From the IMG/VR virus record IMGVR_UViG_3300010885_014609, positions 1 to 27,034 of that record: a stretch of DNA of 27,034 nt. The stretch is one strand, 5' to 3'. Numbering within the stretch: the stretch's first letter is position 1; each line of letters begins with the position of its first letter. This DNA comes from a virus. Of the stretch, positions 149 to 25,397 are shown piece by piece. The notes beneath the pieces were generated by a model. It was given only the letters and a program-made list of their open reading frames with translations. It ran no database searches and had not been told where the DNA came from. The translations under genes were made by a program, and so were the position numbers.

Positions 149-160
149 GTGTATATATAC

Positions 161-162: not shown

Positions 163-254
<92 letters not shown>

Positions 255-418: not shown

Positions 419-510
419 GTTTATCTTGGGGTCAGGATGGGGTGGAGGGGTAATAGTCAAATGGTTTTTCCTAGGCCCCACCATTCTCTCACTATTTTCC
501 CCACCACTCT

Positions 511-692: not shown

Positions 693-711
693 ATGTATAG
701 TGTGTATATAT

Positions 712-903: not shown

Positions 904-911
904 GTAATAGT

Positions 912-6676: not shown

Positions 6677-6682
6677 TATATT

Positions 6683-8278: not shown

Positions 8279-11095
8279 ATGCTAGACAATATATATCAAA
8301 TACCCTTTGACGAAGTGCGCAAAGTTGAATGGCTCGGCGATAACATGCTCTACGACCTACAGCTATACGAACTAGGTAACGGTTGTGATGAGTTCGTAGT
8401 GTTGATCCCTGACATTAATACTGAATTACTTTGGCACAAAAGTCTTAAACATTATATAGAAGAAGTTCCTACTACTAGGAAGTGTATTGTCTTTACTTAC
8501 GAAGACACTTGGGTAGCTAAGATATTCAAAGATGGTTGGTATCCATATCACGGATATGAAACCGTAGAAATTATTAAGCCTAAGCCAATCTGGACAAAGA
8601 ATCCAGAAATAGATAAACTAATGCAGTTCATTGATGAGCCGTTTGCAATATACGAGCCCAACAAATGGGAACGAGATTATAAATTAGTTTGGTATATGGA
8701 TCCTAGATTCAATGACACTAATGATAAGATTTGGGTTATGTCTGTACAAATGACCGGTAGAGAAGTATTAGGTACAAAAGATATGGGATACCTTACTCCA
8801 GACGTATCTGTAGACTTCAATGAATACCTTCCTGACCTAGGTATTAACGTAGACGAATGTTGCCCGCCATTCTGGGATTTGTCCAACGAATGTGCATATG
8901 AACTTGATCCTATACATCAAACACCAGACCTTTCTGAACGCATGTGGGTGGTTAAGTTTAAACCCAACTGGCGAAAACCCAAAGAGTGGAAATGGTACGG
9001 AATAATAAGTCCTCAATATCATATTATCTATAATCCTGCCCTACCTGAATTATCTTATGAATTAGATTACATCGTTCCGTGGCACGACTTTAAGTTTGAA
9101 CACGTTTGGATGTTGGACAGGAAACATCTTCACAACGAAGAAGATGATATATGGGCATTTACTTTGCATGTTACAACTGAACAAACTGGATCTAAAACGA
9201 TAAGTCATGTTAGCCCCATAATCAATGTGGAATATAATCGTAATCTTCCTAAATTAAAATATGATTTAGACTATATTATTCCTTGGCATGACCTTGGGTT
9301 TAAACACGTTTGGTATACGGATCCTAAAGAGAAGATATGGGTAGTGCAAGCAACAGCAACAGAATCTCCTATCGGTGAGAAAGAAATTGGATACATCACT
9401 CCACAAATGGATCAATTAGATGTAATCTTTATCAGTTATCACGAGCCTAACGCAGAAGATAACTGGAAACGTGTATTAGAAAAAGCACCACATGCAAAAA
9501 GAGTAGACGGTGTAACTGGTATATTCAAAGCACATAAAGCAGCCGCCCGGTTATCAAAGACTGACATGTTCTACGTTGTCGACGGTGATGCCTACTTAAC
9601 AGATGATTGGCAATTTAATTTCCAGCCAGAAATATTTGATAGAGATTGTGCCCATGTATGGAATAGCACTAATCCTATAAATGGTCTTATCTATGCAAAT
9701 GGGGGGATTAAACTATTCCCTAGATCATTGTTATTGAAGACACGCAAATGGAAAACTTTAGATATGTTTACCGGCGTTTCTAACAAGATTAAAGTAATAG
9801 ATACTGTTAGTAATGTAACAAAATTTAATACTGACGAATTCTCTACATGGCGCAGCGCATTTAGGGAATGTGTTAAGTTATATGTAGTTAACCAGATGAC
9901 AAAATTAAATACATGGCTAACGGCAGGAAAAGAAAATCAATACGGCGAGTATGCGATATCAGGAGCAGAAGCAGGGTATCAATATGCACAAGCCAATAAA
10001 GATAATCAAGAAGAGTTGATTAATATCAATAATTACACTTGGTTAGAAGAACAATTTAATCACCTATACCCTATGTTAAAAACAAAAAAGTTAACAGTGT
10101 TTGATTACAAACCTATTAAAATTATTAAAAAAGAAGAAATCGTTATTGACCCGTTGCAATACATAAGATTAGAACATTCAAACTTAGATCATAAAGATTG
10201 GTTTGTTGTCAATTGGTGCCTAGGCAATACGTGTAATTTTAGTTGCAGCTATTGTCCAGTAGATCTACACGATCATTCTATCCCCTGGCCAGAGTTTGAT
10301 GTGATCAAACAGTTTATATCTAATGTAAGAGAAACTCATCAAGATAAGAAAATCTATTTTGAATTTACCGGAGGGGAAGTTACACTCTATAAACACTTTA
10401 TAGAACTATGTCAATTCTGCAGAGAATTAGATGTTAAGGTTGGGTTGATCAGTAACGGCAGTCGTACACTAAGATATTGGGAAGAAAATAAACAATATTT
10501 TGATCATGTATGTCTGAGTTTCCATCCAGAAGAAGCAGACGAAAAGCATTTCACTGAAGTAGTTAAAATTCTAAACAATGATGTACGCACACATGTGAAC
10601 ATTATGATGAGTCCTGATAAGTTTGATTTCTGTTATGCCGTGGCCAATAAGATTAAGAATTTAGGCAATATTTCAATGGCTCTACAACCTTTGATACACG
10701 ACTTTGGCGACACGGTTTATGATTATAATGAATTTCAAAAAAAGATATTTGATAAGCAGCATGAGCTAATTGTAAAACATATCAAATATACAAAGTCATT
10801 CGATTACTATCGTGGGGCTATGGTAAAGATCTATCCAGATAATGGTAGACAGGTATCAAGCGCACAGCGGTTCGTCAGTGACAAGACCAATGATTGGTCA
10901 GGATGGAAATGCTACGCTGGGGTAGAACAACTTATAGTTGATAAAGATGGTAGTATACATCGAGGCTGGTGCAAAGAAGGAGGTCCAGTTGGACACATCA
11001 AAGATGCTAATTTAAACTTATTGATAGATCCTGTAGTATGTGGGAATAATATGTGCCATTGTAATTTTGATATTATGTGTACAAAAGAACTATGA
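8279..11095 (+). CDS. repeat domain / glycosyltransferase-like / radical SAM fusion
   Basis: This 938-aa protein has several modules. Residues about 135-378 hold four degenerate repeats (HVWYTDPKEKIWVV; LDYIIPWHDLGFKHVW; GYITPQ). Residues about 380-540 resemble a GT-A-type glycosyltransferase: VIFISYHEPNAEDNW, then FYVVDGDAYLTDDW with a DGD that could bind metal and nucleotide sugar. Residues about 640-830 are a radical SAM domain with CX3CX2C at Cys652, Cys656 and Cys659 and GGE at 698-700. The C-terminus carries an auxiliary Cys cluster: Cys878, Cys898, Cys921, Cys926, Cys928, Cys934. Such a cluster usually binds a second iron-sulfur centre. The start has no Shine-Dalgarno. The substrate is unknown. 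It heads the ATGA-coupled cassette and follows structural genes after 39 bases. Confidence 0.82.
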   Translation: MLDNIYQIPFDEVRKVEWLGDNMLYDLQLYELGNGCDEFVVLIPDINTELLWHKSLKHYIEEVPTTRKCIVFTYEDTWVAKIFKDGWYPYHGYETVEIIKPKPIWTKNPEIDKLMQFIDEPFAIYEPNKWERDYKLVWYMDPRFNDTNDKIWVMSVQMTGREVLGTKDMGYLTPDVSVDFNEYLPDLGINVDECCPPFWDLSNECAYELDPIHQTPDLSERMWVVKFKPNWRKPKEWKWYGIISPQYHIIYNPALPELSYELDYIVPWHDFKFEHVWMLDRKHLHNEEDDIWAFTLHVTTEQTGSKTISHVSPIINVEYNRNLPKLKYDLDYIIPWHDLGFKHVWYTDPKEKIWVVQATATESPIGEKEIGYITPQMDQLDVIFISYHEPNAEDNWKRVLEKAPHAKRVDGVTGIFKAHKAAARLSKTDMFYVVDGDAYLTDDWQFNFQPEIFDRDCAHVWNSTNPINGLIYANGGIKLFPRSLLLKTRKWKTLDMFTGVSNKIKVIDTVSNVTKFNTDEFSTWRSAFRECVKLYVVNQMTKLNTWLTAGKENQYGEYAISGAEAGYQYAQANKDNQEELININNYTWLEEQFNHLYPMLKTKKLTVFDYKPIKIIKKEEIVIDPLQYIRLEHSNLDHKDWFVVNWCLGNTCNFSCSYCPVDLHDHSIPWPEFDVIKQFISNVRETHQDKKIYFEFTGGEVTLYKHFIELCQFCRELDVKVGLISNGSRTLRYWEENKQYFDHVCLSFHPEEADEKHFTEVVKILNNDVRTHVNIMMSPDKFDFCYAVANKIKNLGNISMALQPLIHDFGDTVYDYNEFQKKIFDKQHELIVKHIKYTKSFDYYRGAMVKIYPDNGRQVSSAQRFVSDKTNDWSGWKCYAGVEQLIVDKDGSIHRGWCKEGGPVGHIKDANLNLLIDPVVCGNNMCHCNFDIMCTKEL

Positions 11096-11763
11096 GAATT
11101 TGTTTGTTAGGATTACCAAGATGTGGTAGCCAATATATTTCTAGTTTAATCATATCGAATACTGACTATAAAATTAAAAATTTGTCAGAACCATTCACAC
11201 CAAGGCACGAAGCGTCGTTAAACGATATTGGTTTTACTATCACAGATTTTAATTCTTATGAAGAACAAGTATCATTGGTCATAGATCGAATAAAATCATT
11301 TAATAGTGGCCAATCTCTAGTAATGAAACTATTCCTTCATTCGACTATTCCGTTAATCAATCATATCAGAATTATAGAAGCCCTGAGAGAACTAAATTTT
11401 AAATTTGTTATTATAAAACGTAAGAATACCGTTGACCAATTGCTTAGCCTAGGAATAGGTCTAAAGGTAAACAAGTTTTCTAATTTTGGTAGTTATGATA
11501 ACAGTATAGTAGAAATAGATGACTATATATTATCTATTATGAAAACTCTCCAGGACGACCTTGAAAAATTTGATGGTTTGATTAACGAGCTAAATTTATC
11601 AGATTCTCCTACATTATACTACGAAACTATAAATCAGGACCTATCTGCATTTTTAGGAAAAAACATAAAGATTAATTCTGGATATAGACGAATGTCTATT
11701 CTTCCTTCAAAATATAGGATTTCAAATATTGATAAGGTCCTTACTTCTTTAAATATATCATGA
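11092..11763 (+). CDS. sulfotransferase-like P-loop protein
   Basis: The start is set at the ATG inside the ATGA overlap with the preceding gene, giving 223 aa. The N-terminus MRICLLGLPRCGSQYISSLI has the PRCGS-type loop that binds the 5'-phosphosulfate of PAPS in sulfotransferases. A second match is VIIKRKNTVDQLLSLGI (about 106-122), resembling the 3'-phosphate-binding Arg/Ser segment of that family. The usual length is 250-350 aa, so this is a short member. If active it would move sulfate from PAPS to a sugar or peptide hydroxyl. A divergent kinase-like P-loop protein cannot be excluded. Its position among sugar and radical SAM enzymes fits sulfation of a glycan, which is inference. Confidence 0.6.
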   Translation: MRICLLGLPRCGSQYISSLIISNTDYKIKNLSEPFTPRHEASLNDIGFTITDFNSYEEQVSLVIDRIKSFNSGQSLVMKLFLHSTIPLINHIRIIEALRELNFKFVIIKRKNTVDQLLSLGIGLKVNKFSNFGSYDNSIVEIDDYILSIMKTLQDDLEKFDGLINELNLSDSPTLYYETINQDLSAFLGKNIKINSGYRRMSILPSKYRISNIDKVLTSLNIS

Positions 11764-13166
11764 ATAATAAAATAATACCAATAAACCCAGAGCAGACAAC
11801 ATCACCTAATCCAATGGATACTATGTGTGAGTTTAAATGGAACTATCCTATCTTTCAAATAGATAGAGGAGAGTTTAGAAGCTGCTGTCGTACTCCTTCC
11901 AAACCAATACCTGAAACTCTTTTACAGGAGAAAGGTATAGATGCCTTCCTTAATAACGATCAACTCATTGGTAGCAGATTATCTTTGATCAAAGGGGTCA
12001 GACATTCGGACTGTCAAAGTTGTTGGAATCTTGAAGATAAAGGAATGCAGAGTCCTAGAGAACCAAAAAACTTTTGGAACTTTTTAAAAAGAGAAAAAGT
12101 TATTCCCCAAGATATGGAATATACTGAGGAAAATGTACGAGTAGAATTAGGGAAGATTGATTCAGTGGATCATCCTTTTCTAAAGGCCAAAAGACCATAT
12201 ATGATGGAAATTAGTTTAGGTAATACATGTGATTTAAAGTGTATGTACTGTAACCATCATTATTCGACACAATGGGCATCTGAATTGATTAAAATAGGAG
12301 AAATTACTCAAGAACAATACGACAGAGAGTTTCCTAAGGCCACAACTAGTTTTGAATCTAAGTACTGGGAATGGTTCGAAAAAGTAGGTAGATGGTATAT
12401 ACATCGTGTAAACATGATAGGGGGAGAACCTCTTATTATTCCTGAATTTTACGAATATGTAGAAAAAATGTCTGCACAAATTACTCAGATTATGGCTATC
12501 AAAAAATTAAGGCCTACCCTGTGCATTGTGACTAATCTTAATACTCCTGCAAATTATTTTAACAGATTCATTGAACGACTTCCTAAAATTACCGAAGCAT
12601 TTGATTTAGAAATATTGATCAGTATGGAATCTCTAGATAACCGAGCCGAATATATTCGGAATGGTATCACATGGGAAAGATTCAATTCAAATGTTAATAG
12701 GTTATTTTCAATAACTGATACACAATTCCAGGTTGGATTTTTAATGTCTATTAGTGCATTGAGTATAGCGACCACAAAAGATTTTATTGAATATGCTACT
12801 AACCTATCGGATCAATATAATAGACCGGTTGGATTAAAACAGAATATTATTAATTTTCCATCATGGCAAAGTCCCATGATACTGCCACCGGAGTTTTCGA
12901 AGTATCTTAATGATACCATTGCCTATATGGAGCAACACGTAGATAGAATGCCTAATGTAACTGATTTTCACGGCCGGTATGATCAATATATAATATTTTT
13001 AAAAAGCCTGTCGGAGAGCATGGCAAACAATACAGGTGATTACACAGTAGATAGGAAAAAATTCTACGAATGGTATAATACATTTGATCAAAGGCGCAAT
13101 CTTAATTTATTGTCAACATTTCCTGAGTATACAGAATTTTATAACTTGTGCAAAGGACTTCAGTGA
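11760..13166 (+). CDS. twitch-domain radical SAM protein (468 aa)
   Basis: The N-terminal auxiliary (twitch-like) domain has Cys23, the Cys42-Cys43 pair, and CQSCW at 85-89. The radical SAM domain follows: ISLGNTCDLKCMYC gives Cys157, Cys161 and Cys164 for the 4Fe-4S cluster, and GGEP at 221-224 is the SAM-binding motif. The four auxiliary Cys positions (C, CC, CxxC) suggest a second cluster. This domain order, twitch first, matches the family NCBI calls twitch domain-containing radical SAM proteins, whose chemistry is largely unassigned. The gene overlaps the sulfotransferase-like gene by ATGA. A 26-base gap follows before the next enzyme. The substrate could be a peptide or a sugar. Confidence 0.85.
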   Translation: MNNKIIPINPEQTTSPNPMDTMCEFKWNYPIFQIDRGEFRSCCRTPSKPIPETLLQEKGIDAFLNNDQLIGSRLSLIKGVRHSDCQSCWNLEDKGMQSPREPKNFWNFLKREKVIPQDMEYTEENVRVELGKIDSVDHPFLKAKRPYMMEISLGNTCDLKCMYCNHHYSTQWASELIKIGEITQEQYDREFPKATTSFESKYWEWFEKVGRWYIHRVNMIGGEPLIIPEFYEYVEKMSAQITQIMAIKKLRPTLCIVTNLNTPANYFNRFIERLPKITEAFDLEILISMESLDNRAEYIRNGITWERFNSNVNRLFSITDTQFQVGFLMSISALSIATTKDFIEYATNLSDQYNRPVGLKQNIINFPSWQSPMILPPEFSKYLNDTIAYMEQHVDRMPNVTDFHGRYDQYIIFLKSLSESMANNTGDYTVDRKKFYEWYNTFDQRRNLNLLSTFPEYTEFYNLCKGLQ

Positions 13167-13192
13167 AGATCTGATACACTGTAGAAATAATA

Positions 13193-14560
13193 ATGCAAAA
13201 GAAAACATTTATACCTATATTTGAACAAGATGACGGAGAAGGATCTCCTATTTGGTACACTGCCAAACATTTAGATAATACCTATGGAACCAGTTTGATT
13301 CCCATCATTGGGGTAGAAGATTCGACATACACAGAACAATTAAGAGATCAAGTACCTGATAATTTTTGCCTCTACCCATTCACCCATTTTCAATTAGATC
13401 CAGATGGTCGAGCAAGACCATGTTGTAAGTATAAAGTTGGCGATGACTCTTGGCAAACAGATGTTCCAAAACTACCTGATGTTAATATCGGTGAGCTGTG
13501 GGAGCAGCAAGAGTTTCAAGATTTGCGAGGCAAATTTCTACGAAATGAAAGACCTAGTGGATGCAAAGCATGTTGGGATGAAGAAGCCGCTGGTATCACT
13601 AGTATGAGATTAATGAGAGAACAAGGCGGCAAAGAACACCCATATGCTACCTTCTTTCATCATGTGCCTAGAGAATATCCTAAAACACTTGATTTGAAAC
13701 TTAGTAATCTCTGTAATCTAAAGTGCAGAATATGTACTCCTTATTTGAGTAGTCAATGGATTAAAGAAATCAAAGATCTTGAAGTTCGAGACATGGGAGA
13801 TGTTAATTCTTTTACAAGAAACTCTAGAGAAAAGTTTTTAGAAGATCCTGAAAATGCAGAGATACTAAAACAGTGGGCTCCTGGTATTGACTACATGGAG
13901 TTCTACGGCGGTGAACCATTAATGCAGCAAGAACACGATCGTATTTTAAATATCATGTACGAGCATGGCAAACCAGCTGATACGGGTTTATATTACAATA
14001 CCAACTCTACAATATTTAAAGAGTACCTGTTTACATTGTGGAAGCCATTTAAAGAAGTTGTGATCAACTTTAGTATTGATGATATTAAAGATAGATTTGA
14101 ATATCAGCGATACAATGCCCACTGGGAAGAAACACTACTTAACATTAGGAAGTATCAACAGTATAGTAAAGAACTAGGTGTTAACATGGATCTGCGAGTA
14201 TATGCAACCGTTGGTATATTGAATGTTTACTATTTGAAAGAATTCTTTGAAGAACTAAAAGGCCTAGGAGTCAAAGTTACATTGAATATGGTACATTATC
14301 CACATCATTATTCTATTGTGAATTTACCTACACCTGTTAAAGATATTGTAAAAGAAAAGTTAGAGTCTATCAATACAGACCTAGTACATCATCATTCTTT
14401 GACAATAGACAATATTATTAATTTCATGTATGGTAATAAATATAATAAAGATTTATTGGTTTTATTTTTTACAAAAACAAAACAACATGATGGATACAGG
14501 AAAGAGTCATTTGAAAGTACATTTCCAGAATTTTATGAATTGATTAAGGATTATAAATGA
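13193..14560 (+). CDS. twitch-domain radical SAM protein (455 aa)
   Basis: After about 55 residues of unassigned N-terminus, the twitch domain begins FCLYPFTHFQLDPDGRARPC with Cys59, Cys77, Cys78 and GCKACWDEEAAG (Cys124, Cys127). The radical SAM motif is LKLSNLCNLKCRIC: Cys174, Cys178, Cys181, with GGEP at 239-242. It is much closer to the 391-aa enzyme at 17182 than to the 468-aa one: both have CWDEEAAG, LCNLKCRIC or VCNLKCRIC, and a shared VFNVYYL/ILNVYYL stretch. This points to gene duplication inside the cassette or joint acquisition. The extra N-terminal 55 residues are absent from the 391-aa paralogue. No Shine-Dalgarno is obvious. The 3' end overlaps the next gene by ATGA. Confidence 0.87.
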   Translation: MQKKTFIPIFEQDDGEGSPIWYTAKHLDNTYGTSLIPIIGVEDSTYTEQLRDQVPDNFCLYPFTHFQLDPDGRARPCCKYKVGDDSWQTDVPKLPDVNIGELWEQQEFQDLRGKFLRNERPSGCKACWDEEAAGITSMRLMREQGGKEHPYATFFHHVPREYPKTLDLKLSNLCNLKCRICTPYLSSQWIKEIKDLEVRDMGDVNSFTRNSREKFLEDPENAEILKQWAPGIDYMEFYGGEPLMQQEHDRILNIMYEHGKPADTGLYYNTNSTIFKEYLFTLWKPFKEVVINFSIDDIKDRFEYQRYNAHWEETLLNIRKYQQYSKELGVNMDLRVYATVGILNVYYLKEFFEELKGLGVKVTLNMVHYPHHYSIVNLPTPVKDIVKEKLESINTDLVHHHSLTIDNIINFMYGNKYNKDLLVLFFTKTKQHDGYRKESFESTFPEFYELIKDYK

Positions 14561-15855
14561 GAATAGCAGTACTAATCAGCGGTGAATATAGAACATTCGC
14601 AGAAACTGTACAATCAATGCCATTTCTAAGTGATCCGTTTGTCGATATTTATTTTTCAACATGGAATGTATCAACTTTCCGATTTGACTTTTTAAATATT
14701 TTAAAATCTCAAACTATTACACACCAAGATATTTCTAAATATCTAGGAGGTAAGGGTGTGCGTACCGATATTGCCGATCTTCCCGATCTTCCTGAACTTC
14801 CTTCAAGTATAGATAGAATGATTAATCGATGGATTGCTGGGTTAGATATGATTAATAAATCAGGGATAACCTACGATTACATATACATTATTCGACCAGA
14901 CACATATTTTCAAACTGTGTTTACTGATATTGTCAAAGAGATAGAATCTAAAATAATAAAAGATACTTTTTATGTAGCCTTATCTCAGCATCTACATATG
15001 AAAAGTCTAGGCGATACGGTGATGTTATCATCACCATATATTATGAATTTATTAATTAATTCAAACTTAAAATTTCAGTGGGAAAATACCAAAAACATAC
15101 GAGAATGGCATAATTGGTGGTACAACTATGTATATGATCGAACTAGAAAAATTGAAGAGTTGAGAATGGGAAAACAGCAATGCCTATTGGGATGTGTTGA
15201 TATATTAAGAATGCCACTATTACCTCCAGCAAAACAAAGTGGTCTTATAGATCTACAGTCCCTTACAGATAGAAGTATCCAGTGGTGTAATATAAACACG
15301 ATGAATATTATGCTTAAGAATTCTATGCGGGACGTTCTCTTTCACGGGGGCGATCACGTTAAAATGGCGTTTAATTGGTACTTTGATCGCTATCAAATAA
15401 TTAAAAATCATTTTTTGAAAAATTCTAAACTTATTTCACACAGAGGAAATTTAAGATTTGCTATCCCATCCGAAGAAAATAAACCAGAATATATTTTAGA
15501 AGCACTAGACCGATTTGATGTTGAAATAGATGTTTGGTATGTCAATAATCAATTTTATCTTGGACACGATAATCCACAATATCCTATAGACGAATCATTC
15601 TTGCACAATGATAAATTATGGTGTCATGCTAAAAACCATGAAGCTTTAGAAGCTATGGAAAGAATAAATGTTGTTAATTATTTTTGGCATGAAGAAGAGC
15701 CATATGCATTAACATCGTCCGGGTACCTATGGACCTACCCTGGAAAGCCTCTATCAAAATTATCAATCGCAGTCATGCCAGCTGACATATTTCACATAAC
15801 CTCACCTGTATATGGAATATGTTGTGACTATGTTGAATTTTTGCAAGTGAAATGA
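14557..15855 (+). CDS. glycosyltransferase-like / GDPD-like phosphodiesterase fusion
   Basis: The 432-aa protein appears bifunctional. Residues 1-280 begin MRIAVLISGEYRTFAETVQS and contain DYIYIIRPDTYF (107-118), whose RPD resembles the metal-binding motif of GT-A-like capsule and glycan proteins. Residues about 290-432 resemble a glycerophosphodiester phosphodiesterase: ISHRGN (His295, Arg296), VEIDVWY (Glu323, Asp325) and LGHDNP (His337) line up with the family's catalytic H-R, E-D and H. The GDPD part is short, about 140 residues against roughly 240 in free enzymes, and may be a truncated barrel. AAGGA precedes the ATG, which overlaps the upstream gene by ATGA. The next two genes are a HAD hydrolase and a nucleotidyltransferase, suggesting one sub-pathway. 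Confidence 0.7.
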   Translation: MRIAVLISGEYRTFAETVQSMPFLSDPFVDIYFSTWNVSTFRFDFLNILKSQTITHQDISKYLGGKGVRTDIADLPDLPELPSSIDRMINRWIAGLDMINKSGITYDYIYIIRPDTYFQTVFTDIVKEIESKIIKDTFYVALSQHLHMKSLGDTVMLSSPYIMNLLINSNLKFQWENTKNIREWHNWWYNYVYDRTRKIEELRMGKQQCLLGCVDILRMPLLPPAKQSGLIDLQSLTDRSIQWCNINTMNIMLKNSMRDVLFHGGDHVKMAFNWYFDRYQIIKNHFLKNSKLISHRGNLRFAIPSEENKPEYILEALDRFDVEIDVWYVNNQFYLGHDNPQYPIDESFLHNDKLWCHAKNHEALEAMERINVVNYFWHEEEPYALTSSGYLWTYPGKPLSKLSIAVMPADIFHITSPVYGICCDYVEFLQVK

Positions 15856-16454
15856 AATATATGTTGATGATATTTGATCTAGACGGAGTATTAGTGGATA
15901 CAACATATATCCATTCAAACGCACTTAAACAAGTCGTAAAAGAATATGTGTCGTCAACCGCAGCCGAAGAACCTTATCTAAATGCCAGCGACGGTAAACG
16001 TACTGTCGATAAATTAAAAAAATTACAAACTCAATATAAGTTAGATGATACTGTCATAGATGCTATCAATCGCAGCAAAACTAGCCTAACAATAAATGCA
16101 TTGCATAATATTCCGCAAAATAAATACATAGAAGAGATAATAAACTTTATAAAGTCCAAAAAAATTCTTATTGGAATTGGATCCAATACTCGACGACAAT
16201 ATCTTGATATAATCTTATCTCAGCTCAATATAACAGTCGATTTTACATTAGCCGGTGATGAAGTTTCTAATCCAAAACCAAACCCTGAAATTTTTAATAA
16301 AATTATACAAGTATCGAATAATACTCCAAGTAGCACAATAATTTTTGAAGATAGCGAAACTGGTATAGAAGCAGCAGAAAAAACTGGTGCAACCGTTATC
16401 AAAGTTAATCCTAAAAATCTGTTAACAAGAGAAGATATATTAAAAATATTATGA
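15852..16454 (+). CDS. HAD-superfamily hydrolase (phosphoglucomutase-like)
   Basis: The 200-aa product has all four HAD motifs: FDLDGVLVDT (Asp9 nucleophile, Asp11 acid/base), IGIGSN (Ser111), NPKPNPE (Lys142) and IIFEDSETGIEAA (Glu166, Asp167). The helical cap between motifs I and II (about 18-90) places it with subfamily IA, which includes beta-phosphoglucomutase and small sugar- and glycerol-phosphate phosphatases. The substrate is likely a small phosphorylated sugar or polyol used by the next enzyme, the nucleotidyltransferase; this is inference. ATGA overlaps on both ends make stoichiometric translation with its neighbours likely. Confidence 0.87.
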   Translation: MKYMLMIFDLDGVLVDTTYIHSNALKQVVKEYVSSTAAEEPYLNASDGKRTVDKLKKLQTQYKLDDTVIDAINRSKTSLTINALHNIPQNKYIEEIINFIKSKKILIGIGSNTRRQYLDIILSQLNITVDFTLAGDEVSNPKPNPEIFNKIIQVSNNTPSSTIIFEDSETGIEAAEKTGATVIKVNPKNLLTREDILKIL

Positions 16455-17173
16455 AACCTATTATATTAATTCCTATGGCCGGCAATGGAACTAGATTTTC
16501 TACAGCAGGTTATAAGTTACCAAAACCATTAATAGATGTAGACGGTAAACCCATGATAGAAAGGGTAGTTAACTGTTTTAACAGTATAGACGCAGACTAC
16601 ATTTTTATTGTACAACAAAATCATATTGACAATTATGACATTGATAAACGATTAGAGTCCATAAAACCGAATAGTACCATAGTTAGTACAGGTGCAGGAG
16701 TAACAGAAGGTGCTGCCTGCACAATACTTTTGGCAACAAAATTTATTAACAACGATAGACCCCTGATCGTTGTTAATTCAGATAATTTAGTCGAATGGAA
16801 AGTTGACCTAAATGAATTTACAGAAAGTAATTCAGACGGATTAATATTGACACACTACGCAACAGAACCAATCTGGAGTTTTGTTAAATTAGATGATAGC
16901 GGATACGTAAGTGAGGTAGCTGAAAAGAAACCAATAAGCTCTTTAGCTACATCCGGAGTTTATATCTGGAAACAGGGTAAGAATTTTGTTAAAGCTGCTA
17001 ACCAAATGATCGATAAAAATATTCGAACAAATAATGAGTTTTACGTTGCTCCAGTGTTTAATGAAAATATATTACTTGGTCATAAAATATCAACAGTATT
17101 GACAAGAATGTGGGGTCTAGGTACACCTGAAGAATTAGAAAAGTTTTTGTCTACCAACATTCTAAATAATTAA
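16451..17173 (+). CDS. sugar nucleotidyltransferase (NTP_transferase family)
   Basis: The 240-aa enzyme opens with MKPIILIPMAGNGTRFSTAG, the glycine-rich nucleotide-binding signature (G11-N-G-T-R15-F), followed by YKLPKPLIDVDGKPM with the expected Lys25. VVNSDNLVEW (Asp111) is the metal-binding site. This is the fold of enzymes that couple NTP and a sugar-phosphate, or phosphocholine-type phosphates, to make an activated donor. Which NTP and sugar are used cannot be read here. It follows the HAD hydrolase by ATGA and is separated by eight bases from the next radical SAM gene. Together with the glycosyltransferase-like domains it argues for glycan or phospho-substituent synthesis. Confidence 0.87.
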   Translation: MKPIILIPMAGNGTRFSTAGYKLPKPLIDVDGKPMIERVVNCFNSIDADYIFIVQQNHIDNYDIDKRLESIKPNSTIVSTGAGVTEGAACTILLATKFINNDRPLIVVNSDNLVEWKVDLNEFTESNSDGLILTHYATEPIWSFVKLDDSGYVSEVAEKKPISSLATSGVYIWKQGKNFVKAANQMIDKNIRTNNEFYVAPVFNENILLGHKISTVLTRMWGLGTPEELEKFLSTNILNN

Positions 17174-17181
17174 ATAGGTAC

Positions 17182-18357
17182 ATGAACTTACCTAATACAT
17201 TTTGTACCCTGCCTTGGATCAACTTATCTACTGACGTCAACGGATCATTAAGACCCTGTTGTAAATTTGCTCAGCCGGAAGCATCTAATGAATATCAACT
17301 TCCTAACATGAAAGAAGGATCATTAGATGTTTTATGGAATGATATTAGATACCAAACTCTAAGGCAGGCATTCTTAGATGGCAAGAAACCTAAAGAATGT
17401 CAAAGTTGTTGGGATGAAGAAGCCGCCGGCATGAACAGTTTTAGAATACAGTTTGCCAAAGATAAAAAGATTGATACCAGCAAAATGGAATTTACCCCAG
17501 TTGCTGCCAGCGGTCCAAAAGCCATGGACCTAAAACTTAATAATGTTTGTAATTTAAAATGCAGAATATGCGGTCCGCAGGCAAGTTCTACATTTTTAAA
17601 AGAATATCAAGAGCAGTATAATATTAAGATTGAAGATAGTGCCTATTGGTTATCTAATAAAATACTAGGTACAGCTAATGAACAGGTGATTAAACAGTGG
17701 GCTGATGATCTAGTGCATTTGGAGATCACCGGCGGTGAGCCTATGGCAAGTCCAGAGAACATTAAAATACTAGATTTGTTGATAAGATCTAATCGTGCTC
17801 AAAACATTTCTATATTATTGAATACTAATGGTACACTGTACAATAAAAAATTCTTAGATCTATTGGTAAATTTCAAAGAGGTTACTCTCTGTATATCTAT
17901 CGACGATCTAGGAGAGAGATTGGAATACGAAAGATATCCTACAGAGTGGACAGTTGTACAAGATAATATTAAAAAATTTATAGAGCTTAAATCTCGACAT
18001 GATAATTTATTTTTAACTCTCTGCCCAACTGTCAGTGTGTTTAATGTCTACTATCTTCCAGATTATCTAGAATGGGCCAAGACTATGAATATGTTTACCT
18101 ACTATAATATACTACACTACCCTCCTAGTCATAGTATTAAAAACTTGCCCGATGCATTAAAAGAAATAGTATCAGAAAGATTAACAGCATCGGAGTTTGA
18201 TATCGTAAAGAATTTCCTACATCTAGAGTGCGAAGGCCAAGATCTTATCAAAGAATTTATTAACAAGAATAACGTATTAGATAATTTTAGAGTACAGAAT
18301 TTTAAAACAACATTCGGAGAGTGGGGGACATTAGTTACTGGATATGCAGATGAATAA
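17182..18357 (+). CDS. twitch-domain radical SAM protein (391 aa)
   Basis: The twitch domain begins almost at residue 1: FCTLPWINLSTDVNGSLRPC gives Cys8, Cys26 and Cys27, then ECQSCWDEEAAG (Cys73, Cys76). The radical SAM motif LKLNNVCNLKCRIC has Cys123, Cys127 and Cys130, and GGEP is at 184-187. It is the nearest relative in the window of the 455-aa enzyme and lacks that protein's N-terminal extension, so it looks like the minimal architecture. AGGT precedes the ATG. Its 3' end overlaps the following radical SAM gene by 14 bases. Confidence 0.88.
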   Translation: MNLPNTFCTLPWINLSTDVNGSLRPCCKFAQPEASNEYQLPNMKEGSLDVLWNDIRYQTLRQAFLDGKKPKECQSCWDEEAAGMNSFRIQFAKDKKIDTSKMEFTPVAASGPKAMDLKLNNVCNLKCRICGPQASSTFLKEYQEQYNIKIEDSAYWLSNKILGTANEQVIKQWADDLVHLEITGGEPMASPENIKILDLLIRSNRAQNISILLNTNGTLYNKKFLDLLVNFKEVTLCISIDDLGERLEYERYPTEWTVVQDNIKKFIELKSRHDNLFLTLCPTVSVFNVYYLPDYLEWAKTMNMFTYYNILHYPPSHSIKNLPDALKEIVSERLTASEFDIVKNFLHLECEGQDLIKEFINKNNVLDNFRVQNFKTTFGEWGTLVTGYADE

Positions 18358-19498
18358 TTTAACACAAGAACAAATTCTAGCCTATAATGAAAAACGTCAA
18401 GAATTTGATCGTTCTAGAAAAATTAATACTATCAGTCCGTGTGTTGCTCCATTTAATAACATGTACTTTACTGTTGAAGGAAATGTTGCACCTTGCTGGT
18501 TATTGGTAGGACATGTTGATAAGTGGTCGTCATCGAGATCGATTAAAGATATATGGCAGGGTGAAGAATTTACCACATACAGAAACAATCTTATAAAAGG
18601 TGCATTTGAAAAAGAATGTAGAGTTTGCAAACAGAAAATAGAAGCAGACACGTGGCCCCTAGCCATGGCCTATGATGGGTTTAGTATTAAAGAATATCCT
18701 ACATTGATGGAATTAGAACTCAGTAATCAATGTAATTTAGAATGTGTTATGTGCGATGGTAGATTAAGTTCTGGTATTAGAAAGAATAGAGATAAACTGC
18801 CACCGATGCCGGCAGTTTATGATGACTCATTTGTCGAGCAGTTAAAAGAGTTTATACCGCATTTAGAAGAATTGCGATTCAACGGCGGCGAACCTTTTGC
18901 ACAAAAGATTGTTTACGACATCTGTATGCTGGTTGCAGAAATCAATCCTGGCTTGCGAATCAACATTGCTACAAATGGTACTGTATATAATAAACAGGTA
19001 AGATCTATATTGGAAAAATGTAATGTAAGTTTGAATATCAGCATCGATAGCCTAGACAAAGAGAATTACGAATCTATTCGTGTCAACGGTAACTTTGATG
19101 ACCTAATGGAAAACTTTCAAACTTTCAATAATTACTGCAAACTTAACGAAAGAGGATTGAGTGTTATGGTCAATCCTATGCGTACTAATTGGTGGGAAAT
19201 GCCCGAGTTTGTTAGGTTTACAAATGAAAACAAAGTTAACCTCTGGTATAATACAATACATCATCCCGAGCATCTTAGCATATGGAGTTTACCTAGTCAG
19301 GACCTGAGTATTATTTTACAGGCTTTAGAATTACGAGTAGAAGAACTAAAGCCTGTAAATACTGAAAATTATGTTGCTTACGGAAATTGGGAAAAATTAG
19401 ATCATTTTGTCAATAAACAAATAAAAAATTGGTACAACAAACAACAGGCAAGAGAAATCGAGTCAGATAAAAAAATAATTAAAATTAAATCAATATGA
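18344..19498 (+). CDS. divergent twitch-domain radical SAM protein (384 aa)
   Basis: The radical SAM motif LELSNQCNLECVMC gives Cys130, Cys134 and Cys137; GGEP is at 181-184. The N-terminal twitch-like region has Cys33, then APCW with Cys51 alone where the paralogues have a Cys-Cys pair, then ECRVC (Cys92, Cys95). One auxiliary ligand of the other three is therefore replaced by Trp, which could change the auxiliary cluster. A second ATG at 18350 (MNNLTQEQ) is equally possible as the start and differs by two residues; neither has a Shine-Dalgarno. The protein ends with a Lys-rich tail. The last four bases overlap the SGNH-like gene. Confidence 0.85.
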   Translation: MQMNNLTQEQILAYNEKRQEFDRSRKINTISPCVAPFNNMYFTVEGNVAPCWLLVGHVDKWSSSRSIKDIWQGEEFTTYRNNLIKGAFEKECRVCKQKIEADTWPLAMAYDGFSIKEYPTLMELELSNQCNLECVMCDGRLSSGIRKNRDKLPPMPAVYDDSFVEQLKEFIPHLEELRFNGGEPFAQKIVYDICMLVAEINPGLRINIATNGTVYNKQVRSILEKCNVSLNISIDSLDKENYESIRVNGNFDDLMENFQTFNNYCKLNERGLSVMVNPMRTNWWEMPEFVRFTNENKVNLWYNTIHHPEHLSIWSLPSQDLSIILQALELRVEELKPVNTENYVAYGNWEKLDHFVNKQIKNWYNKQQAREIESDKKIIKIKSI

Positions 19499-20355
19499 AA
19501 AAATTATTAATAAACGGATGTAGTTTTGTAGCAGGAGATGCGATCGTGTGGCACGAATATCGTATGAGCCTAGGCCAGGAATATGCTAGCGTTCCTTGGG
19601 AAACTGCATCTGTGACTCATAATAGTCTATATCAACAATATAGGCATGAATATAGGCCTAAATTTAATATGGGCGCTAAATTAATTGAAAATTTAGGATG
19701 GACTGATAAAGTTGATCTATCAGATGATGGTAGTAGCAATGATATGATTTCTATGAAAACCATAGCTTATCTATTGTCTATACCGGAAGAAGAAAGACAG
19801 CAGTTTCATGTATGTGTAGGATGGACAAGTGTTATGAGGTTAATGAAATATGTCAAAACTGCTAATGTATATGCAAATTTACATATAAATCATTTTGGAC
19901 AAACAGATCATCCAATGGTTAAGGAACTACATAATTATATTAGATATTGCTTGGTTGAAGCTTACGATGAAGATTTTTCAATGAATTATATAAAAAATGT
20001 AATACTGTTAGAAAGTTTTTTAAGATCTAATAATATAACCTATACTTTCTTTAGAAGCTTGGGTACACAGCATGATTTTAAACGAGGCGATTTTGACGTT
20101 TTCAATGAACATAATTCTAAAAATTCTCGCCTTGCTAAAGATGGAATCAGCGATATTAAAAACTGGTACAAATTTTACGATAATAGAGACAAAGCCGACT
20201 ACGATCCTATTTACGGAGTATCTTGGTGTGATTCCACTGTTCTTCGAAAACCAAATATGCTATTGCCAGCGCCTAGTGGCCACCCTAATCTAAACGCTGT
20301 AATAGATCTTGCTGGATCACTTTCTAATTTTATTAAATCTCAACAAATTTTATAA
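19495..20355 (+). CDS. SGNH/GDSL-like hydrolase
   Basis: The 286-aa protein starts MKKLLINGCSFVAGDAIVWH. NGCSF with Cys9-Ser10 is the block-I nucleophile region of SGNH-fold proteins common in phages. GSSND (79-83) could supply the block-III Asn. Near the C-terminus PSGHPNLN (His262) resembles the catalytic-His block, but the Asp usually two or three residues before that His is missing. The fold assignment is reasonable; activity is less certain. SGNH enzymes remove or transfer acyl groups, often on sugars, which fits the neighbours. It is the last gene of the rightward cassette and meets the leftward radical SAM pair tail to tail with a six-base overlap. Confidence 0.65.
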   Translation: MKKLLINGCSFVAGDAIVWHEYRMSLGQEYASVPWETASVTHNSLYQQYRHEYRPKFNMGAKLIENLGWTDKVDLSDDGSSNDMISMKTIAYLLSIPEEERQQFHVCVGWTSVMRLMKYVKTANVYANLHINHFGQTDHPMVKELHNYIRYCLVEAYDEDFSMNYIKNVILLESFLRSNNITYTFFRSLGTQHDFKRGDFDVFNEHNSKNSRLAKDGISDIKNWYKFYDNRDKADYDPIYGVSWCDSTVLRKPNMLLPAPSGHPNLNAVIDLAGSLSNFIKSQQIL

Positions 20356-22872
20356 TTTTTGAAATAACATCATATTATCCACTGTTTTGATCAGTTTACA
20401 TTTTGTATTGATATATTCTTTAGAAATATCTCCTATGTTGTAAGTATGCACAGCTATATACTTGTTTTCTTTCACATAGGGAATCCATTTAGTTAAATTA
20501 TCAATAGATGGATGTTTAATAATACACAGATCAACTGGTGTGCTCCATTCTTCCTGTAATAATTTAATATTTTTAAATTTTTCAGTATTGCGCTTCCATA
20601 CTAAGAAACCACTAGGATCATTTTTAAAATCAGAGTAAATTCCTGCTAGGTATGTTTCTGCTACATCTGTAGATTCGTTCACTTCTCTGCACACATCAAA
20701 CAATTGCTCTTGAACATATGACGTTGAATTATTAAATTCATCATATAATCCGTTTCCATTAAATGATCCTACACTGTAAATGTGAACAGTTGAATTATTA
20801 TGTGCAAGAATTGCAGAAATTCCACCCATTCCTGAATCAACATCGACTACTATATCATCTTGGGATAATGTTTTAGAAAAATTTGCTAGAAATAATCTTT
20901 CTGATACTGAAATAGAAGAAAAACAAGAAGCTAAAGGTAATGTGCCTTTATCTATCGATTGTTGTTTTATGAAAAATATCTTTTTAACTTTGGTCTTGGA
21001 AGATTCGCTCCATTTATCTGCAATATTAAATGCATAGGCAAATCCAGGAGTATCGACTACATCTCTAAAATTGTTTATAAACTTGTATACTCCTGATGCA
21101 GAATAATTTCCAGTGTCATCTATTTTAAATCTAATGGTGCCTGTAAAATCGTTTGTTTCTGGAACTAGAGCAAATATAAAATCTTTATGATCAAGTTCTT
21201 TATTGAAATTAATATTGATTTCGAATCCGCCTCGGGCCCTCCATAACATACGTAGTAGTCCAAACACCTCGTTCATTACACTATCGGCAAATTGGCCATG
21301 GCCTGACTTAATAATATTAAAATCAAAATCTTCGTATTCGATATGATTGCTGATATATTCTGAATCGAATTTAACACTAAAATGATCAGTGATGTTACCA
21401 ACACTGTGTACATTTGCTAAAGTCCCACCATATTCTTTGCATATATGTAACCATATGTGCATTAGTTTAATTCTAATCTGCCTATGTAATTTTGTATTGG
21501 TAAGATCTTTGGTATACCAACCACCCAGCCAAGGCTGGTCTCTATGGTTTAAATTGTATTTTTCTCTGTTGTCATAGTCTGAACCAAAATTATCTCCTAG
21601 TCCCGGACCGGGACTAACTGCATAAATTCTTGCCCTATGATTCCACAGCATGTTAAAACTATGTGCAAATGCTTCTATATCTTCGCCCGGTGCGCCAATA
21701 ACCCAACAGGCAGATACTTTCATACCTACTATATGTGAGTCAATAATATTTTGATTGATTTCAGCAACTGTGTTTTTCTTATTGATTGCTTTCAATACTT
21801 TATCGCTACCTGTTTCAATTCCGTAGTTAAACCCTTGGCAACCTGCATCAGCCATTAATTGATAAAATGCTAGATCCATACGACCGTCACATCGTGCATA
21901 TCCCCACCAATTAATTCCCAATTTGCGTTTAACTAATTCCTCGCAGAACCTTTTAAATTCTTTTAGACTGCCATTCATTAGACTATCAACAAATGACACA
22001 AATGTAATGCCATATCGACTAACCTGATATTCTAACTCGTCGACAACAGTTGTTGCTCCCCTATCCCTAAATTTCCAATAGTATACTTCTGTGCAGTAGC
22101 TACACTTGGCAATACATCCTCTACTGATTTCTGCACAGATGGATCCTTTGCCCCAGTACTTGTCTAAATCGAAATCTGAGTAATCCGGATAAGGTAAGCT
22201 GTCGATATCAATGCGAGTATCACTGTATAAACTTCCTACTGCCTGTTGTGCAGGTCTAATACCATTTTCCCAATCATTTAAAAAGTCTAAGATATTTTGT
22301 TCACTTTCTCCAACAAAGTAATAATCCACACCTTTAGGTACATTAAATTTTTCTTCATGACATTGTGGCCCTCCCATGAGGATAGTTATATCAGGCCGAA
22401 CTTTTTTAATTTCAGCAATCATCCATTTGGTTGCTGTAAAATTTGTGTAGTAGGTGCTGAACCCAATGATGTCAACATCGTCAGCGAGCAAGGTTGCTAA
22501 GTATGTTTTTAAAATAGGTTCATAAGTAGGGTGTATTCTTGCATAATATTCTTTTTCATCTTGCCACCACCAATAATTAGCACCGTTCCATGCATCATGT
22601 AAATCTGGATTCTTTTCTTTTAATGCATAATGGGATTCTACGTTAAAATCGTATACTTTAGTAAGATAACCTGCTTCTCTAACTAAACTAGATAATCGTG
22701 CTAGGTTGTAAGGTGGCATATAGATTGCCCAACTTCCTAATACGCATAGTGTAAATTTTGTTTTTCTTGTAGCATTAAAAACGTTTACAGATTTAACATT
22801 TAACCTTGGTTTACGAACTGCATTTTTTGGAATTAAATTTTCTGCGATCCATGTATCTTTATCCATTGCCAT
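20350..22872 (-). CDS. B12-binding-type radical SAM protein with methyltransferase-like tail
   Basis: In the 840-aa product, residues about 38-200 form a cobalamin-binding-like Rossmann domain (CVLGSWAIYMPPYNLARL; VDIIGFSTYYTNF; ILMGGP; VGESE). The radical SAM domain follows with RGCIAKCSYC: Cys253, Cys257, Cys260. Typical downstream features are YGIETGSDKVLKAINK and VIGAPGED. Residues about 500-640 are unassigned. Residues about 655-835 look like a class I methyltransferase fold (DIVVDVDSGMGGISAILAHN, VHIYSVGSF). B12-radical SAM enzymes often methylate unactivated carbons or rearrange rings. The canonical DxHxxG cobalamin motif is not visible, so cobalamin may bind base-off or not at all. 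The start follows the upstream gene's TAA directly. Confidence 0.82.
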   Translation of the reverse strand: MAMDKDTWIAENLIPKNAVRKPRLNVKSVNVFNATRKTKFTLCVLGSWAIYMPPYNLARLSSLVREAGYLTKVYDFNVESHYALKEKNPDLHDAWNGANYWWWQDEKEYYARIHPTYEPILKTYLATLLADDVDIIGFSTYYTNFTATKWMIAEIKKVRPDITILMGGPQCHEEKFNVPKGVDYYFVGESEQNILDFLNDWENGIRPAQQAVGSLYSDTRIDIDSLPYPDYSDFDLDKYWGKGSICAEISRGCIAKCSYCTEVYYWKFRDRGATTVVDELEYQVSRYGITFVSFVDSLMNGSLKEFKRFCEELVKRKLGINWWGYARCDGRMDLAFYQLMADAGCQGFNYGIETGSDKVLKAINKKNTVAEINQNIIDSHIVGMKVSACWVIGAPGEDIEAFAHSFNMLWNHRARIYAVSPGPGLGDNFGSDYDNREKYNLNHRDQPWLGGWYTKDLTNTKLHRQIRIKLMHIWLHICKEYGGTLANVHSVGNITDHFSVKFDSEYISNHIEYEDFDFNIIKSGHGQFADSVMNEVFGLLRMLWRARGGFEININFNKELDHKDFIFALVPETNDFTGTIRFKIDDTGNYSASGVYKFINNFRDVVDTPGFAYAFNIADKWSESSKTKVKKIFFIKQQSIDKGTLPLASCFSSISVSERLFLANFSKTLSQDDIVVDVDSGMGGISAILAHNNSTVHIYSVGSFNGNGLYDEFNNSTSYVQEQLFDVCREVNESTDVAETYLAGIYSDFKNDPSGFLVWKRNTEKFKNIKLLQEEWSTPVDLCIIKHPSIDNLTKWIPYVKENKYIAVHTYNIGDISKEYINTKCKLIKTVDNMMLFQKL

Positions 22873-23916
22873 TTATTTTCTATCTCCAAATAGTATGTAG
22901 TCTTCTTTAGTGTAACCGTCCATCACCTCACTGCCAGATTTAAGATTAGGTTGACTATTTTTGTTATCTAACCCGCCTCGAATAGGAACAATCGCCCAGG
23001 TGCAATAGTCTGTAAAATGTGGTAATGTTTTAAGTTCTTCTTCTAATAATAGTGCTTCCTCTCTGTTGTGGGGAGCCATCATAAACTTGACTTCTAGGTG
23101 TCCGCAACCTGCCACTGTTGCTTTTTCGTGTGCTACTGCTTCAACTACTTTGACAAATTTGGCCCTATCATAGAACTCGAAGTGTACACTAAGGTTAAGA
23201 TCACCGTAGTGAATAACTTCTCTATAATAATCAGGTAGTCGACTTCCGTTGCTGTGCAGGCTAACATGGTGCCCCATTACGTTTAGATACCGTAGCCAAT
23301 CCAAAAAGTTTTTGTTGGCAGTAGGCTCGCCACCGCTGATGATAAAGTTAACACTTTCGCCTTTGGTAAAATGTTTTTCCAAATTGTGAGTGGCATGCAT
23401 TAGTTCTTCTAAGGTCTTGTGCCTATCAGTGTTATTATGTATCCACGGCCAGCAGTATGAACAATCGTAATTACATCTACGGCTAATTTCCCAGTAGATT
23501 TGTTTTTGTTTACTGGCATGCGTTCGTTCCATAGCAACAAAATCTGTTAGATTGTTGTTACGAAGTTCTGGTTGTGTGTCTAGTCCTTGGCCCTTGCGAA
23601 GCATCGGCATAAATTCTATTTTTTGTACTTTAGGGATAAAGAGATCTGCACCACAGCTACAGTTATTTCTTGTGCAGTCAATCCACGATTCGGGTACCCT
23701 AAAGTCTTCAAAAACATTACCAAGAGGTCCGCCAACCCTACAACTAGCTGTCCATACTCCGCCATCCATATCGATGAATAGGCTGTCTACTCCGGCCCCG
23801 CATTTCCATCCTGTGATATAATTTAGTTTAGCACCGACTAATTCATCTGTACTCCAATCTCTCCATGTGCCGTCTTGGGCGTATGTTCGAATTGGTTTGC
23901 CGGGAGTTTGGTCCAT
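22873..23916 (-). CDS. radical SAM protein with N-terminal auxiliary Cys domain
   Basis: The 347-aa protein has an N-terminal auxiliary domain with Cys39, Cys59, Cys81, Cys86 and Cys88 (GWKCGAGVDSLFID; SCRVGGPLGNV; NNCSCG). The radical SAM domain follows: ISRRCNYDCSYC gives Cys148, Cys152 and Cys155; GGEP is at 195-198. The auxiliary domain matches the C-terminal end of the 938-aa protein in residues and spacing, so one is a permuted version of the other. The C-terminus stops soon after VPIRGG and LFGDRK, short of where the auxiliary domain sits in the 938-aa relative. AAGGA and a CATAAATA octamer lie upstream. It is co-transcribed with the 840-aa gene. Confidence 0.85.
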   Translation of the reverse strand: MDQTPGKPIRTYAQDGTWRDWSTDELVGAKLNYITGWKCGAGVDSLFIDMDGGVWTASCRVGGPLGNVFEDFRVPESWIDCTRNNCSCGADLFIPKVQKIEFMPMLRKGQGLDTQPELRNNNLTDFVAMERTHASKQKQIYWEISRRCNYDCSYCWPWIHNNTDRHKTLEELMHATHNLEKHFTKGESVNFIISGGEPTANKNFLDWLRYLNVMGHHVSLHSNGSRLPDYYREVIHYGDLNLSVHFEFYDRAKFVKVVEAVAHEKATVAGCGHLEVKFMMAPHNREEALLLEEELKTLPHFTDYCTWAIVPIRGGLDNKNSQPNLKSGSEVMDGYTKEDYILFGDRK

Positions 23917-23934
23917 GTTTTTTTCCTTGTGCTA

Positions 23935-23942
23935 TATTTATG
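23935..23942 (-). promoter_or_regulatory. late promoter-like octamer for the leftward radical SAM pair
   Basis: On the minus strand CATAAATA matches seven of eight bases of the T4-type late promoter. It ends 18 bases before the ATG at 23916 and is followed by AAGGA. It lies two bases from the divergent octamer at 23945. Confidence 0.5.
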
Positions 23943-23944
23943 TC

Positions 23945-23952
23945 AATAAATA
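23945..23952 (+). promoter_or_regulatory. late promoter-like octamer for the cytidylyltransferase operon
   Basis: AATAAATA matches seven of eight bases of the T4-type late promoter, 23 bases before the ATG at 23976. A TATAAT hexamer lies between (23957-23962), but I see no good -35 at the right distance, so the late-type reading is preferred. Confidence 0.5.
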
Positions 23953-23975
23953 CTGCTATAATAAAAGATAAGCAC

Positions 23976-24743
23976 ATGCGAAAAATAGTATTAGTAACAG
24001 GTGGATTTGATCCTATTCATAGTGGTCATATTGCCTACTTTAAAGAAGCCCGAGAATTGGGAGATATTCTTATTGTTGGAGTTAATTCGGACGCCTGGCT
24101 CACACGCAAGAAAGGTAGATCTTTTATGCCTTGGGAAGAACGTGCCACTATTGTCGCTGCTATGCATTATGTTGATAGAGTTATCAATTTTGATGATACA
24201 GATGGATCTGCAAAAGATGCAATACGCAAGACGCGAGCAATATATCCTAACTGTGAAATTATCTTTGCTAATGGTGGAGACCGTACTAAAGAAAACACTC
24301 CAGAAATGGATCTACTCAAAGAATACTTACATCTAAGATTTAAATTTGGAGTAGGTGGTGGGAATAAGGCCAATAGTAGTAGCTGTATCTTAGAAGAATG
24401 GAAGGCTCCTAAAACAGAACGTCCGTGGGGTTACTATCGTGTACTACACGAAGTGCCCGGAACAAAAGTTAAAGAATTAACAGTAGATCCTGGACAAAGC
24501 CTAAGTATGCAGAGGCACGATCATCGTTCTGAGTATTGGATTGTTAGCGAAGGAACAGCCGTTGTTAATAGTATGATGCCTGGAGGATACAGTATGCCTA
24601 GTATCGAACTAGAAAAACATGCAGAATATCATGTTCCATTAAATCAATGGCATCAGTTAACTAACCCATTTGATGTTCCTTGTAAAATTATAGAGATACA
24701 ATATGGATTACAATGCAACGAGTCAGATATTGAACGTAGATAA
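23976..24743 (+). CDS. cytidylyltransferase-cupin fusion
   Basis: The 255-aa product joins two enzyme types. Residues 1-130 begin MRKIVLVTGGFDPIHSGHIA with HSGH (His15, His18), the signature of nucleotidyltransferases of the glycerol-3-phosphate cytidylyltransferase / RfaE type. Residues about 145-245 are a cupin like the isomerase half of type II mannose-6-phosphate isomerase/GMP proteins: RPWGYYRVL, SMQRHDHRSEYWIVSEGTAV (His181, His183, Glu186) and NQWHQLTN (His226) provide the expected metal ligands. The frame is open 37 codons further upstream, but that part would cross the divergent promoter region, so the ATG at 23976 is chosen. It probably makes an activated sugar or polyol and epimerises or isomerises it. 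The substrate is unknown. Confidence 0.83.
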   Translation: MRKIVLVTGGFDPIHSGHIAYFKEARELGDILIVGVNSDAWLTRKKGRSFMPWEERATIVAAMHYVDRVINFDDTDGSAKDAIRKTRAIYPNCEIIFANGGDRTKENTPEMDLLKEYLHLRFKFGVGGGNKANSSSCILEEWKAPKTERPWGYYRVLHEVPGTKVKELTVDPGQSLSMQRHDHRSEYWIVSEGTAVVNSMMPGGYSMPSIELEKHAEYHVPLNQWHQLTNPFDVPCKIIEIQYGLQCNESDIERR

Positions 24744-25396: not shown

Positions 25397-25397
25397 T

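Follow-up and report, generated by a model that had tools for sequence, protein, structure and literature searches.

What are seven radical S-adenosylmethionine (SAM) genes doing side by side in one stretch of viral DNA? This question is raised by the IMG/VR record IMGVR_UViG_3300010885_014609, whose 27,034 bases were analysed as a whole (the window), with the genes at 8279-23916 as the region under study. In this region seven genes give matches above the curated cut-off to the Pfam family PF04055 (Radical_SAM). Together with their neighbours they probably form a module encoding a coupled multistep pathway that assembles and tailors a glycan in a T4-like phage, the likeliest target being the envelope of the infected cell. 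The window would be part of such a phage, judging from its large relatives, which encode the T4-type capsid protein Gp23; among them is the 230 kb record G044, where the whole module is present. The 27 kb fragment itself holds no capsid or terminase gene.

The seven proteins have the sizes and motifs that had been listed in a preliminary description of this DNA, as confirmed by the Pfam cut-off and a motif check: 938, 468, 455, 391 and 384 aa on the plus strand, 840 and 347 aa on the minus strand, with CX3CX2C in all seven and GGE or GGEP in six, the 840-aa protein being without GGE. The same description had let the set start at position 10202; its first gene really begins at 8279, because the radical SAM part is confined to the C-terminal third of a fusion protein with a glycosyltransferase (GT)-A-like middle. 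The conserved set also takes in an SGNH-like gene and, in relatives, two additional GT-A-like genes upstream. In the 12-16 orthologues compared for each family, all CX3CX2C cysteines are invariant, as are, in the six twitch/SPASM-type members, the cysteines of the auxiliary clusters. The seven enzymes are intact and distinct.

From the point of view of family assignment, the 468-, 455- and 391-aa proteins belong to the NCBIfam family NF033640 (N_Twi_rSAM, cut-off 170 bits), the 384-aa protein falls just outside it with 164.8 bits, and the 938- and 347-aa proteins are not members in the NCBIfam search. The SPASM-type domain PF13186 is N-terminal in the 455-, 391- and 384-aa proteins, as opposed to its usual C-terminal place, and the 468-aa protein has a conserved N-terminal cysteine set without a PF13186 match. 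The auxiliary cysteines are N-terminal in the 347-aa protein (39, 59, 81, 86, 88) and C-terminal in the 938-aa protein (878, 898, 921, 926, 928), and their almost equal spacing suggests that the two domains are related by circular permutation. The GT-A-like domain of the 938-aa protein (about residues 373-625, with a DGDA motif) is fused to the radical SAM gene in the window, in L012/L013 and in L009/L011, and precedes it elsewhere, most relatives carrying the two halves as separate adjoining genes. The 840-aa protein contains a B12-binding domain (PF02310, 39.2 bits versus a cut-off of 32.1), and its C-terminal domain weakly matches stand-alone proteins of G044, one of them a Methyltransf_24 match. 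Its identification as the P-methyltransferase PhpK (TIGR04479) was rejected at 114 bits versus the 600 required. For prokaryotic viperin (NF038283) the best score among the window proteins was 57.7 bits, the cut-off being 180.

A search with the 384-aa protein returned 36 viral loci, most of the viral records being fragments. As far as each contig extends, 21 of them share with the window the order [GT-like], radical SAM 320, 468, 455, 391, 384, SGNH, followed by 840 and 347 in reverse orientation. Some of these contigs represent nearly the same virus (L009/L011, L012/L013, L015/L016/L017, L026/L027/L028), so that the independent cases number roughly 15; the L026-L028 group is without the 840-aa gene. 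Adjacent core genes on the same strand overlap in 95 of 104 pairs, and a single gap, of 63 nt, reaches 60 nt. The gene set travels together, ordered and in the same orientation, in about 21 other IMG/VR records; its genes are not scattered singly and randomly across the relatives. A chimeric contig or chance is ruled out by this identical order and orientation. Fixed order, gene overlaps and co-inheritance of seven intact and distinct enzymes support the coordinated pathway suggested earlier. Identity to L011 differs from gene to gene (94% for the 347-aa, 76% for the 391-aa and 59% for the 455-aa protein, 36% for SGNH), which fits recombination within a maintained set; the SGNH-like gene occurs in almost all relatives, yet diverges fast.

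When the 347-aa and the 840-aa protein were each used as an independent query, 51 loci were found for the former and 29 for the latter. Where the flanks are sufficient, the 840-aa gene is usually accompanied by twitch genes. The "320" and 347-aa genes are also found paired without twitch genes (for example in L075, L082 and L094), and the module therefore consists of a twitch/B12 core and an outer pair that is more widely spread. In some viruses further genes for twitch-type radical SAM proteins, 2-oxoglutarate (2OG)-oxygenase-like proteins (recognised by eye) and methyltransferases are inserted between the 840- and 347-aa genes, and one record reaches 13 radical SAM genes. GT-A-like (three), sulfotransferase-like, SGNH, methyltransferase, 2OG-oxygenase-like and carbamoyltransferase genes are variably present around the module. 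In G044, 11 radical SAM genes at about 135-156 kb share the region with three GT-A-like, two sulfotransferase-like and several SGNH-like genes and one carbamoyltransferase gene, adjoining fibre genes. Several radical SAM matches in G039 (524,565 bases) are identical to those in G040 (170,963 bases), so that both records may stem from one virus or from nearly identical ones.

That the product is a glycan, as had also been proposed, is supported by the neighbouring genes and by bacterial relatives located in polysaccharide loci. The structure model of the GT-A-like domain (pLDDT 81) matched mostly GT-A glycosyltransferases in foldseek. The bacterial relatives of the 384-aa protein, mostly 45-51% identical, come from Bacteroidota and Oligoflexia assemblies, and two or more twitch radical SAM genes occur in 25 of the 26 bacterial loci holding a close relative. 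Their partners in these 26 loci are GT-like (17), SGNH (16), methyltransferase (15), UbiA (15), AsnB-type (8) and PhyH (8) genes, a polysaccharide-type ATP-binding cassette (ABC) ATPase (5) and, most rarely among those counted, a B12 radical SAM protein (3) and a carbamoyltransferase (3). An Oligoflexia metagenome-assembled genome (MAG; locus L147) combines relatives of the 391- and 384-aa proteins with CysN, CysD and adenylylsulfate (APS) kinase, for the synthesis of phosphoadenylylsulfate (PAPS), a sulfotransferase-like gene and both parts of an ABC exporter. In the tree the four phage twitch groups are separate, well-supported clades, with bacterial relatives near the 384, 391 and 455 groups, and the 468 group stands on a long branch without any. 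The phage set is therefore one of old distinct enzymes, not of fresh copies, and a recent duplication as the origin of the seven is ruled out by the separate twitch clades, three of them with bacterial relatives of their own. In a Bacteroidota MAG (L163, 3705-8803) five adjoining radical SAM genes of about 302-325 aa lie beside UbiA and two twitch genes; the closest of the five proteins is about 31% identical to the 347-aa protein.

From these data the following pathway can be proposed for what would be a host-recognition and surface-modification region of a T4-like phage. Sugars would be supplied and attached by the nucleotidylyltransferase, the HAD phosphatase, the cytidylyltransferase-cupin protein and the GT-A-type glycosyltransferases. 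The four N-terminal-twitch and the two further Fe-S-rich radical SAM enzymes may then abstract hydrogen from sugars or sugar-linked intermediates, with oxidation, dehydration, epimerisation or C-C/C-S changes as candidate outcomes, and the fusion of a B12 radical SAM enzyme with a methyltransferase could add carbon. Sulfotransferase-like, carbamoyltransferase, methyltransferase and SGNH proteins would provide the end decoration, and the product, exported by the host's machinery, might alter the envelope of the infected cell, for example by masking receptors against competing phages. Sugar as the substrate, the order of the steps, the destination and the purpose are all putative.

Several results weigh against this proposal. 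The fold matches of the GT-A-like domain have modest TM-scores of about 0.4, in NCBIfam the radical SAM proteins gave no equivalog-level match to a family with sugar chemistry, and the fold search with the model of the 384-aa protein (pLDDT 75.8) retrieved numerous radical SAM enzymes acting on peptides or on sugars, where peptide maturases, sugar-nucleoside and nucleotide enzymes appear alike and permit no choice. In PDB searches the profile of the 391/455 group found no match, that of the 347 group a single weak one (tetraether synthase), and that of the 840 group weak matches to AprD4 and B12 enzymes; these are too weak for assigning chemistry. The module is often downstream of fibre genes on the same strand, which would also fit virion modification. 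Neither an ABC-2 exporter (PF01061, 0 of 20 phage records) nor a Wzx-type flippase (PF01943, 0 of 16) was found, so that export would rely on the host, or the target would be cytoplasmic, such as virion proteins in assembly. A glycan built wholly in the cytoplasm on the phage's own fibres or baseplate is indeed the most serious competitor, although we consider it unlikely. The fibre-type genes directly upstream in many relatives, such as G044, and the lack of export genes speak for it, as do the protein glycosyltransferases SunS and ppGalNAcT among the top fold matches of the GT-A-like domain. However, the neighbouring fibre genes vary by lineage while the module is constant, and the bacterial relatives adjoin genes for lipid-linked or exported glycans, not fibres. 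Gram-negative porins (PF13609), each with an apparent signal peptide and flanked on either side by phage genes, are encoded in 7 of the 16 large phage records with the module or the outer pair, where they could possibly serve in receptor replacement or exclusion. Because the bacterial relatives lie in export loci, porins are frequent and the fibre neighbours change while the module stays, the host envelope is somewhat favoured over the virion, the two destinations that the preliminary description had put side by side; its multistep pathway with a glycan as product is supported.

Peptides are often the substrate of SPASM/twitch enzymes, and in the fold search the 384-aa model came closest to the maturase SkfB of a ribosomally synthesised and post-translationally modified peptide (RiPP). 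A sugar-independent maturation of peptides or proteins, either RiPP-like or on fibres, is nevertheless improbable, given the carbohydrate enzymes as neighbours and the overlapping core genes, whose largest gap of 63 nt leaves no intergenic space for a precursor peptide gene inside the module. Phages employ radical SAM enzymes of the QueE type in 7-deazaguanine routes, and thyA is present in several relatives, both of which could be taken to favour nucleobase hypermodification. This alternative, raised in the preliminary description, found no support and has next to no probability in our estimation: the thymidylate synthase of most module-bearing relatives looks ordinary, since the match is full-length and its gene in G012 is next to a dihydrofolate reductase-like gene, the window contains no hydroxymethylase-type gene, and the bacterial relatives have no link to DNA. 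It is also very doubtful that these are loose auxiliary genes for Fe-S metabolism and oxidoreduction aiding the host, as proposed for CP220 and a TARA virus (PMC5332604; PMC2853527). The iscU gene is found in 7 of 24 records and, in L012, L013 and L023, directly past the module with A-type carrier-like genes, but the fixed order of distinct enzymes and their GT, sulfotransferase-like and carbamoyltransferase partners point to one pathway, and iscU is better read as a cofactor supply for the radical SAM module.

The features described are collected in Table 1, including those around the core. Among the variable members, the 228-aa sulfotransferase-like protein has no family match, and its homologues occupy the same slot in relatives. 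The 432-aa protein had been called glycosyltransferase-like, a call that has no support from Pfam or NCBIfam; its match to phrog_34507 is limited to residues 290-394, and its gene belongs to a sub-cassette missing from most relatives and present in L069. Most relatives have other fibre-type genes in place of the virion-like genes directly upstream of the module. The Hint-type protein among these has homologues in L013 and L023. In G044, an LpxH-like phosphoesterase (below cut-off) and a GT2 gene adjoin the porin (locus L171, about 124.3-125.8 kb), a pair with a possible lipid A-related function.

Table 1. Positions of the features in the window and of the porin genes in related phage records.
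Feature	Size (aa)	Position (strand)	PF04055 match	Remarks
Repeated elements AGCGGGGTATTC and TATATACACACTAT		121-941		TATATACACACTAT in inverted copies; left end
tRNA-Met (CAT)		167-244 (-)		Left end
Virion-like genes		5392..8239 (+)		Directly upstream; Hint-domain protein 369 aa, 60-aa protein, beta-rich 518-aa protein
Hint-type protein		5392-6501		Gly-rich stretch, then Hint-type domain (below cut-off); adjoins fibre-like genes
Radical SAM fusion	938	8279..11095 (+)	10220-10522	N-terminal repeats, GT-A-like middle, C-terminal radical SAM
Sulfotransferase-like P-loop protein	228	11077..11763 (+)		Motif GLPRCGSQYI; variable module member
N-twitch radical SAM	468	11760..13166 (+)	12210-12707	NF033640 234.5 bits
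N-twitch radical SAM, N-terminal SPASM	455	13193..14560 (+)	13700-14167	PF13186; NF033640 332.6 bits
Glycosyltransferase-like, glycerophosphodiester phosphodiesterase (GDPD)-like C-terminus	432	14557..15855 (+)		Both by eye
HAD-family phosphatase/beta-phosphoglucomutase-like	200	15852..16454 (+)		PF13419; TIGR02009 below cut-off
Sugar-1-phosphate nucleotidylyltransferase-like	240	16451..17173 (+)		PF00483
N-twitch radical SAM, N-terminal SPASM	391	17182..18357 (+)	17539-17997	PF13186; NF033640 314.3 bits
N-twitch-like radical SAM, N-terminal SPASM	384	18344..19498 (+)	18716-19216	PF13186; structure model
SGNH-like (DUF6071)	286	19495..20355 (+)		PF19547, 29.9 bits (cut-off 27)
B12-binding radical SAM	840	20350..22872 (-)	21649-22131	PF02310
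Radical SAM	347	22873..23916 (-)	23155-23490	Most conserved member, 62% invariant columns
Cytidylyltransferase-like (heptose-1-P adenylyltransferase-like) and mannose-6-P isomerase-type cupin fusion		23865..24743 (+)		PF01467, PF01050
Methyltransferase-like	192	24703..25281 (+)		No family match; kept beside module in some relatives
NodU-type O-carbamoyltransferase	506	25356..26876 (+)		PF02543, PF16861
Porins of related records		G044 126019-126822; G037 25749-26633		Also G039, G040, G042, G045, G018 (L172-L175)

Enzymes of the N_Twi_rSAM type are without assigned chemistry, and since 2010 there has been no explanation for phages with about a dozen such genes. The fixed module, its counterparts in bacterial polysaccharide loci and the common partner enzymes turn them into a testable pathway, whose predicted substrate is a sugar or a lipid-linked sugar, and the Oligoflexia locus hints at a sulfated, methylated or carbamoylated glycan as the type of product. 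If true, this would show a way in which phages remodel the host surface during lytic infection. As a broader and clearly tentative idea, lytic T4-like phages may carry a complete multi-radical pathway, partly common to bacterial polysaccharide loci, that edits sugar carbon skeletons and yields a new glycan on the cell or virion, with Fe-S assembly factors supplied.

Compared with known systems, the earlier statement that single radical SAM genes occur in phages is true but understated, as phages carrying 11-12 of them are on record (PMC2853527; PMC5332604). Many-radical-SAM T4-like phages are already known, and it is the module, its order, its enzyme classes and its bacterial relatives that appear to be undescribed in the searchable literature. 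The Campylobacter phages CP220 and CPt10 have 11 and 12 radical SAM genes, respectively; an interchangeable cluster holds five of these (PMC2853527), and in CP220 this cluster is located near baseplate-type genes and includes two GT-A-fold (nucleotide-diphospho-sugar transferase) genes. They resemble the module in being T4-like and in combining many radical SAM genes with GT-A-fold partners, but the radical SAM proteins of the window that were tested have no sequence match in Campylobacter phages. CP220 also has an amidinotransferase with its five radical SAM genes, for which the scanned window proteins gave no match, and its annotated cluster, unlike the window, has no B12-type enzyme, carbamoyltransferase or sulfotransferase. 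Among marine T4-like viruses, TARA_ERS488813_N000010 has 12 radical SAM genes and others carry iscU or A-type carriers (PMC5332604), in agreement with the iscU genes found here; the host-recognition region of pelagimyophages contains radical SAM cassettes (PMC7029224). These, compared by description only, are similar to the module in their variable region with tail fibres and glycosyltransferases and, in some, IscU or A-type carriers, whereas the papers define no module, order, enzyme classes or bacterial relatives.

Among isolate phages, tblastn found no match to the 938-aa protein, whether the whole sequence or its radical SAM part was the query, and a search with the 840-aa protein gave three weak ones. 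The cultured T4-like Vibrio phage KVP40 and its relatives (Schizotequatrovirus) also have twitch-type radical SAM genes, which are the best matches there of the 455-aa protein at about 25% identity or lower; they are fewer and far diverged, form a separate clade in the tree and lie in a neighbourhood of NAD salvage and QueC genes. NF033640 itself is a family defined without chemistry; in the window three proteins above its cut-off and one just below represent four divergent groups side by side. The polysaccharide loci of Bacteroidota and Oligoflexia differ by lipid-carrier or export genes, which are missing from the phages, and share with the module relatives of the 384, 391 and 455 groups, accompanied by subsets of the same SGNH, methyltransferase, carbamoyltransferase, B12 radical SAM and sulfotransferase-like partners.

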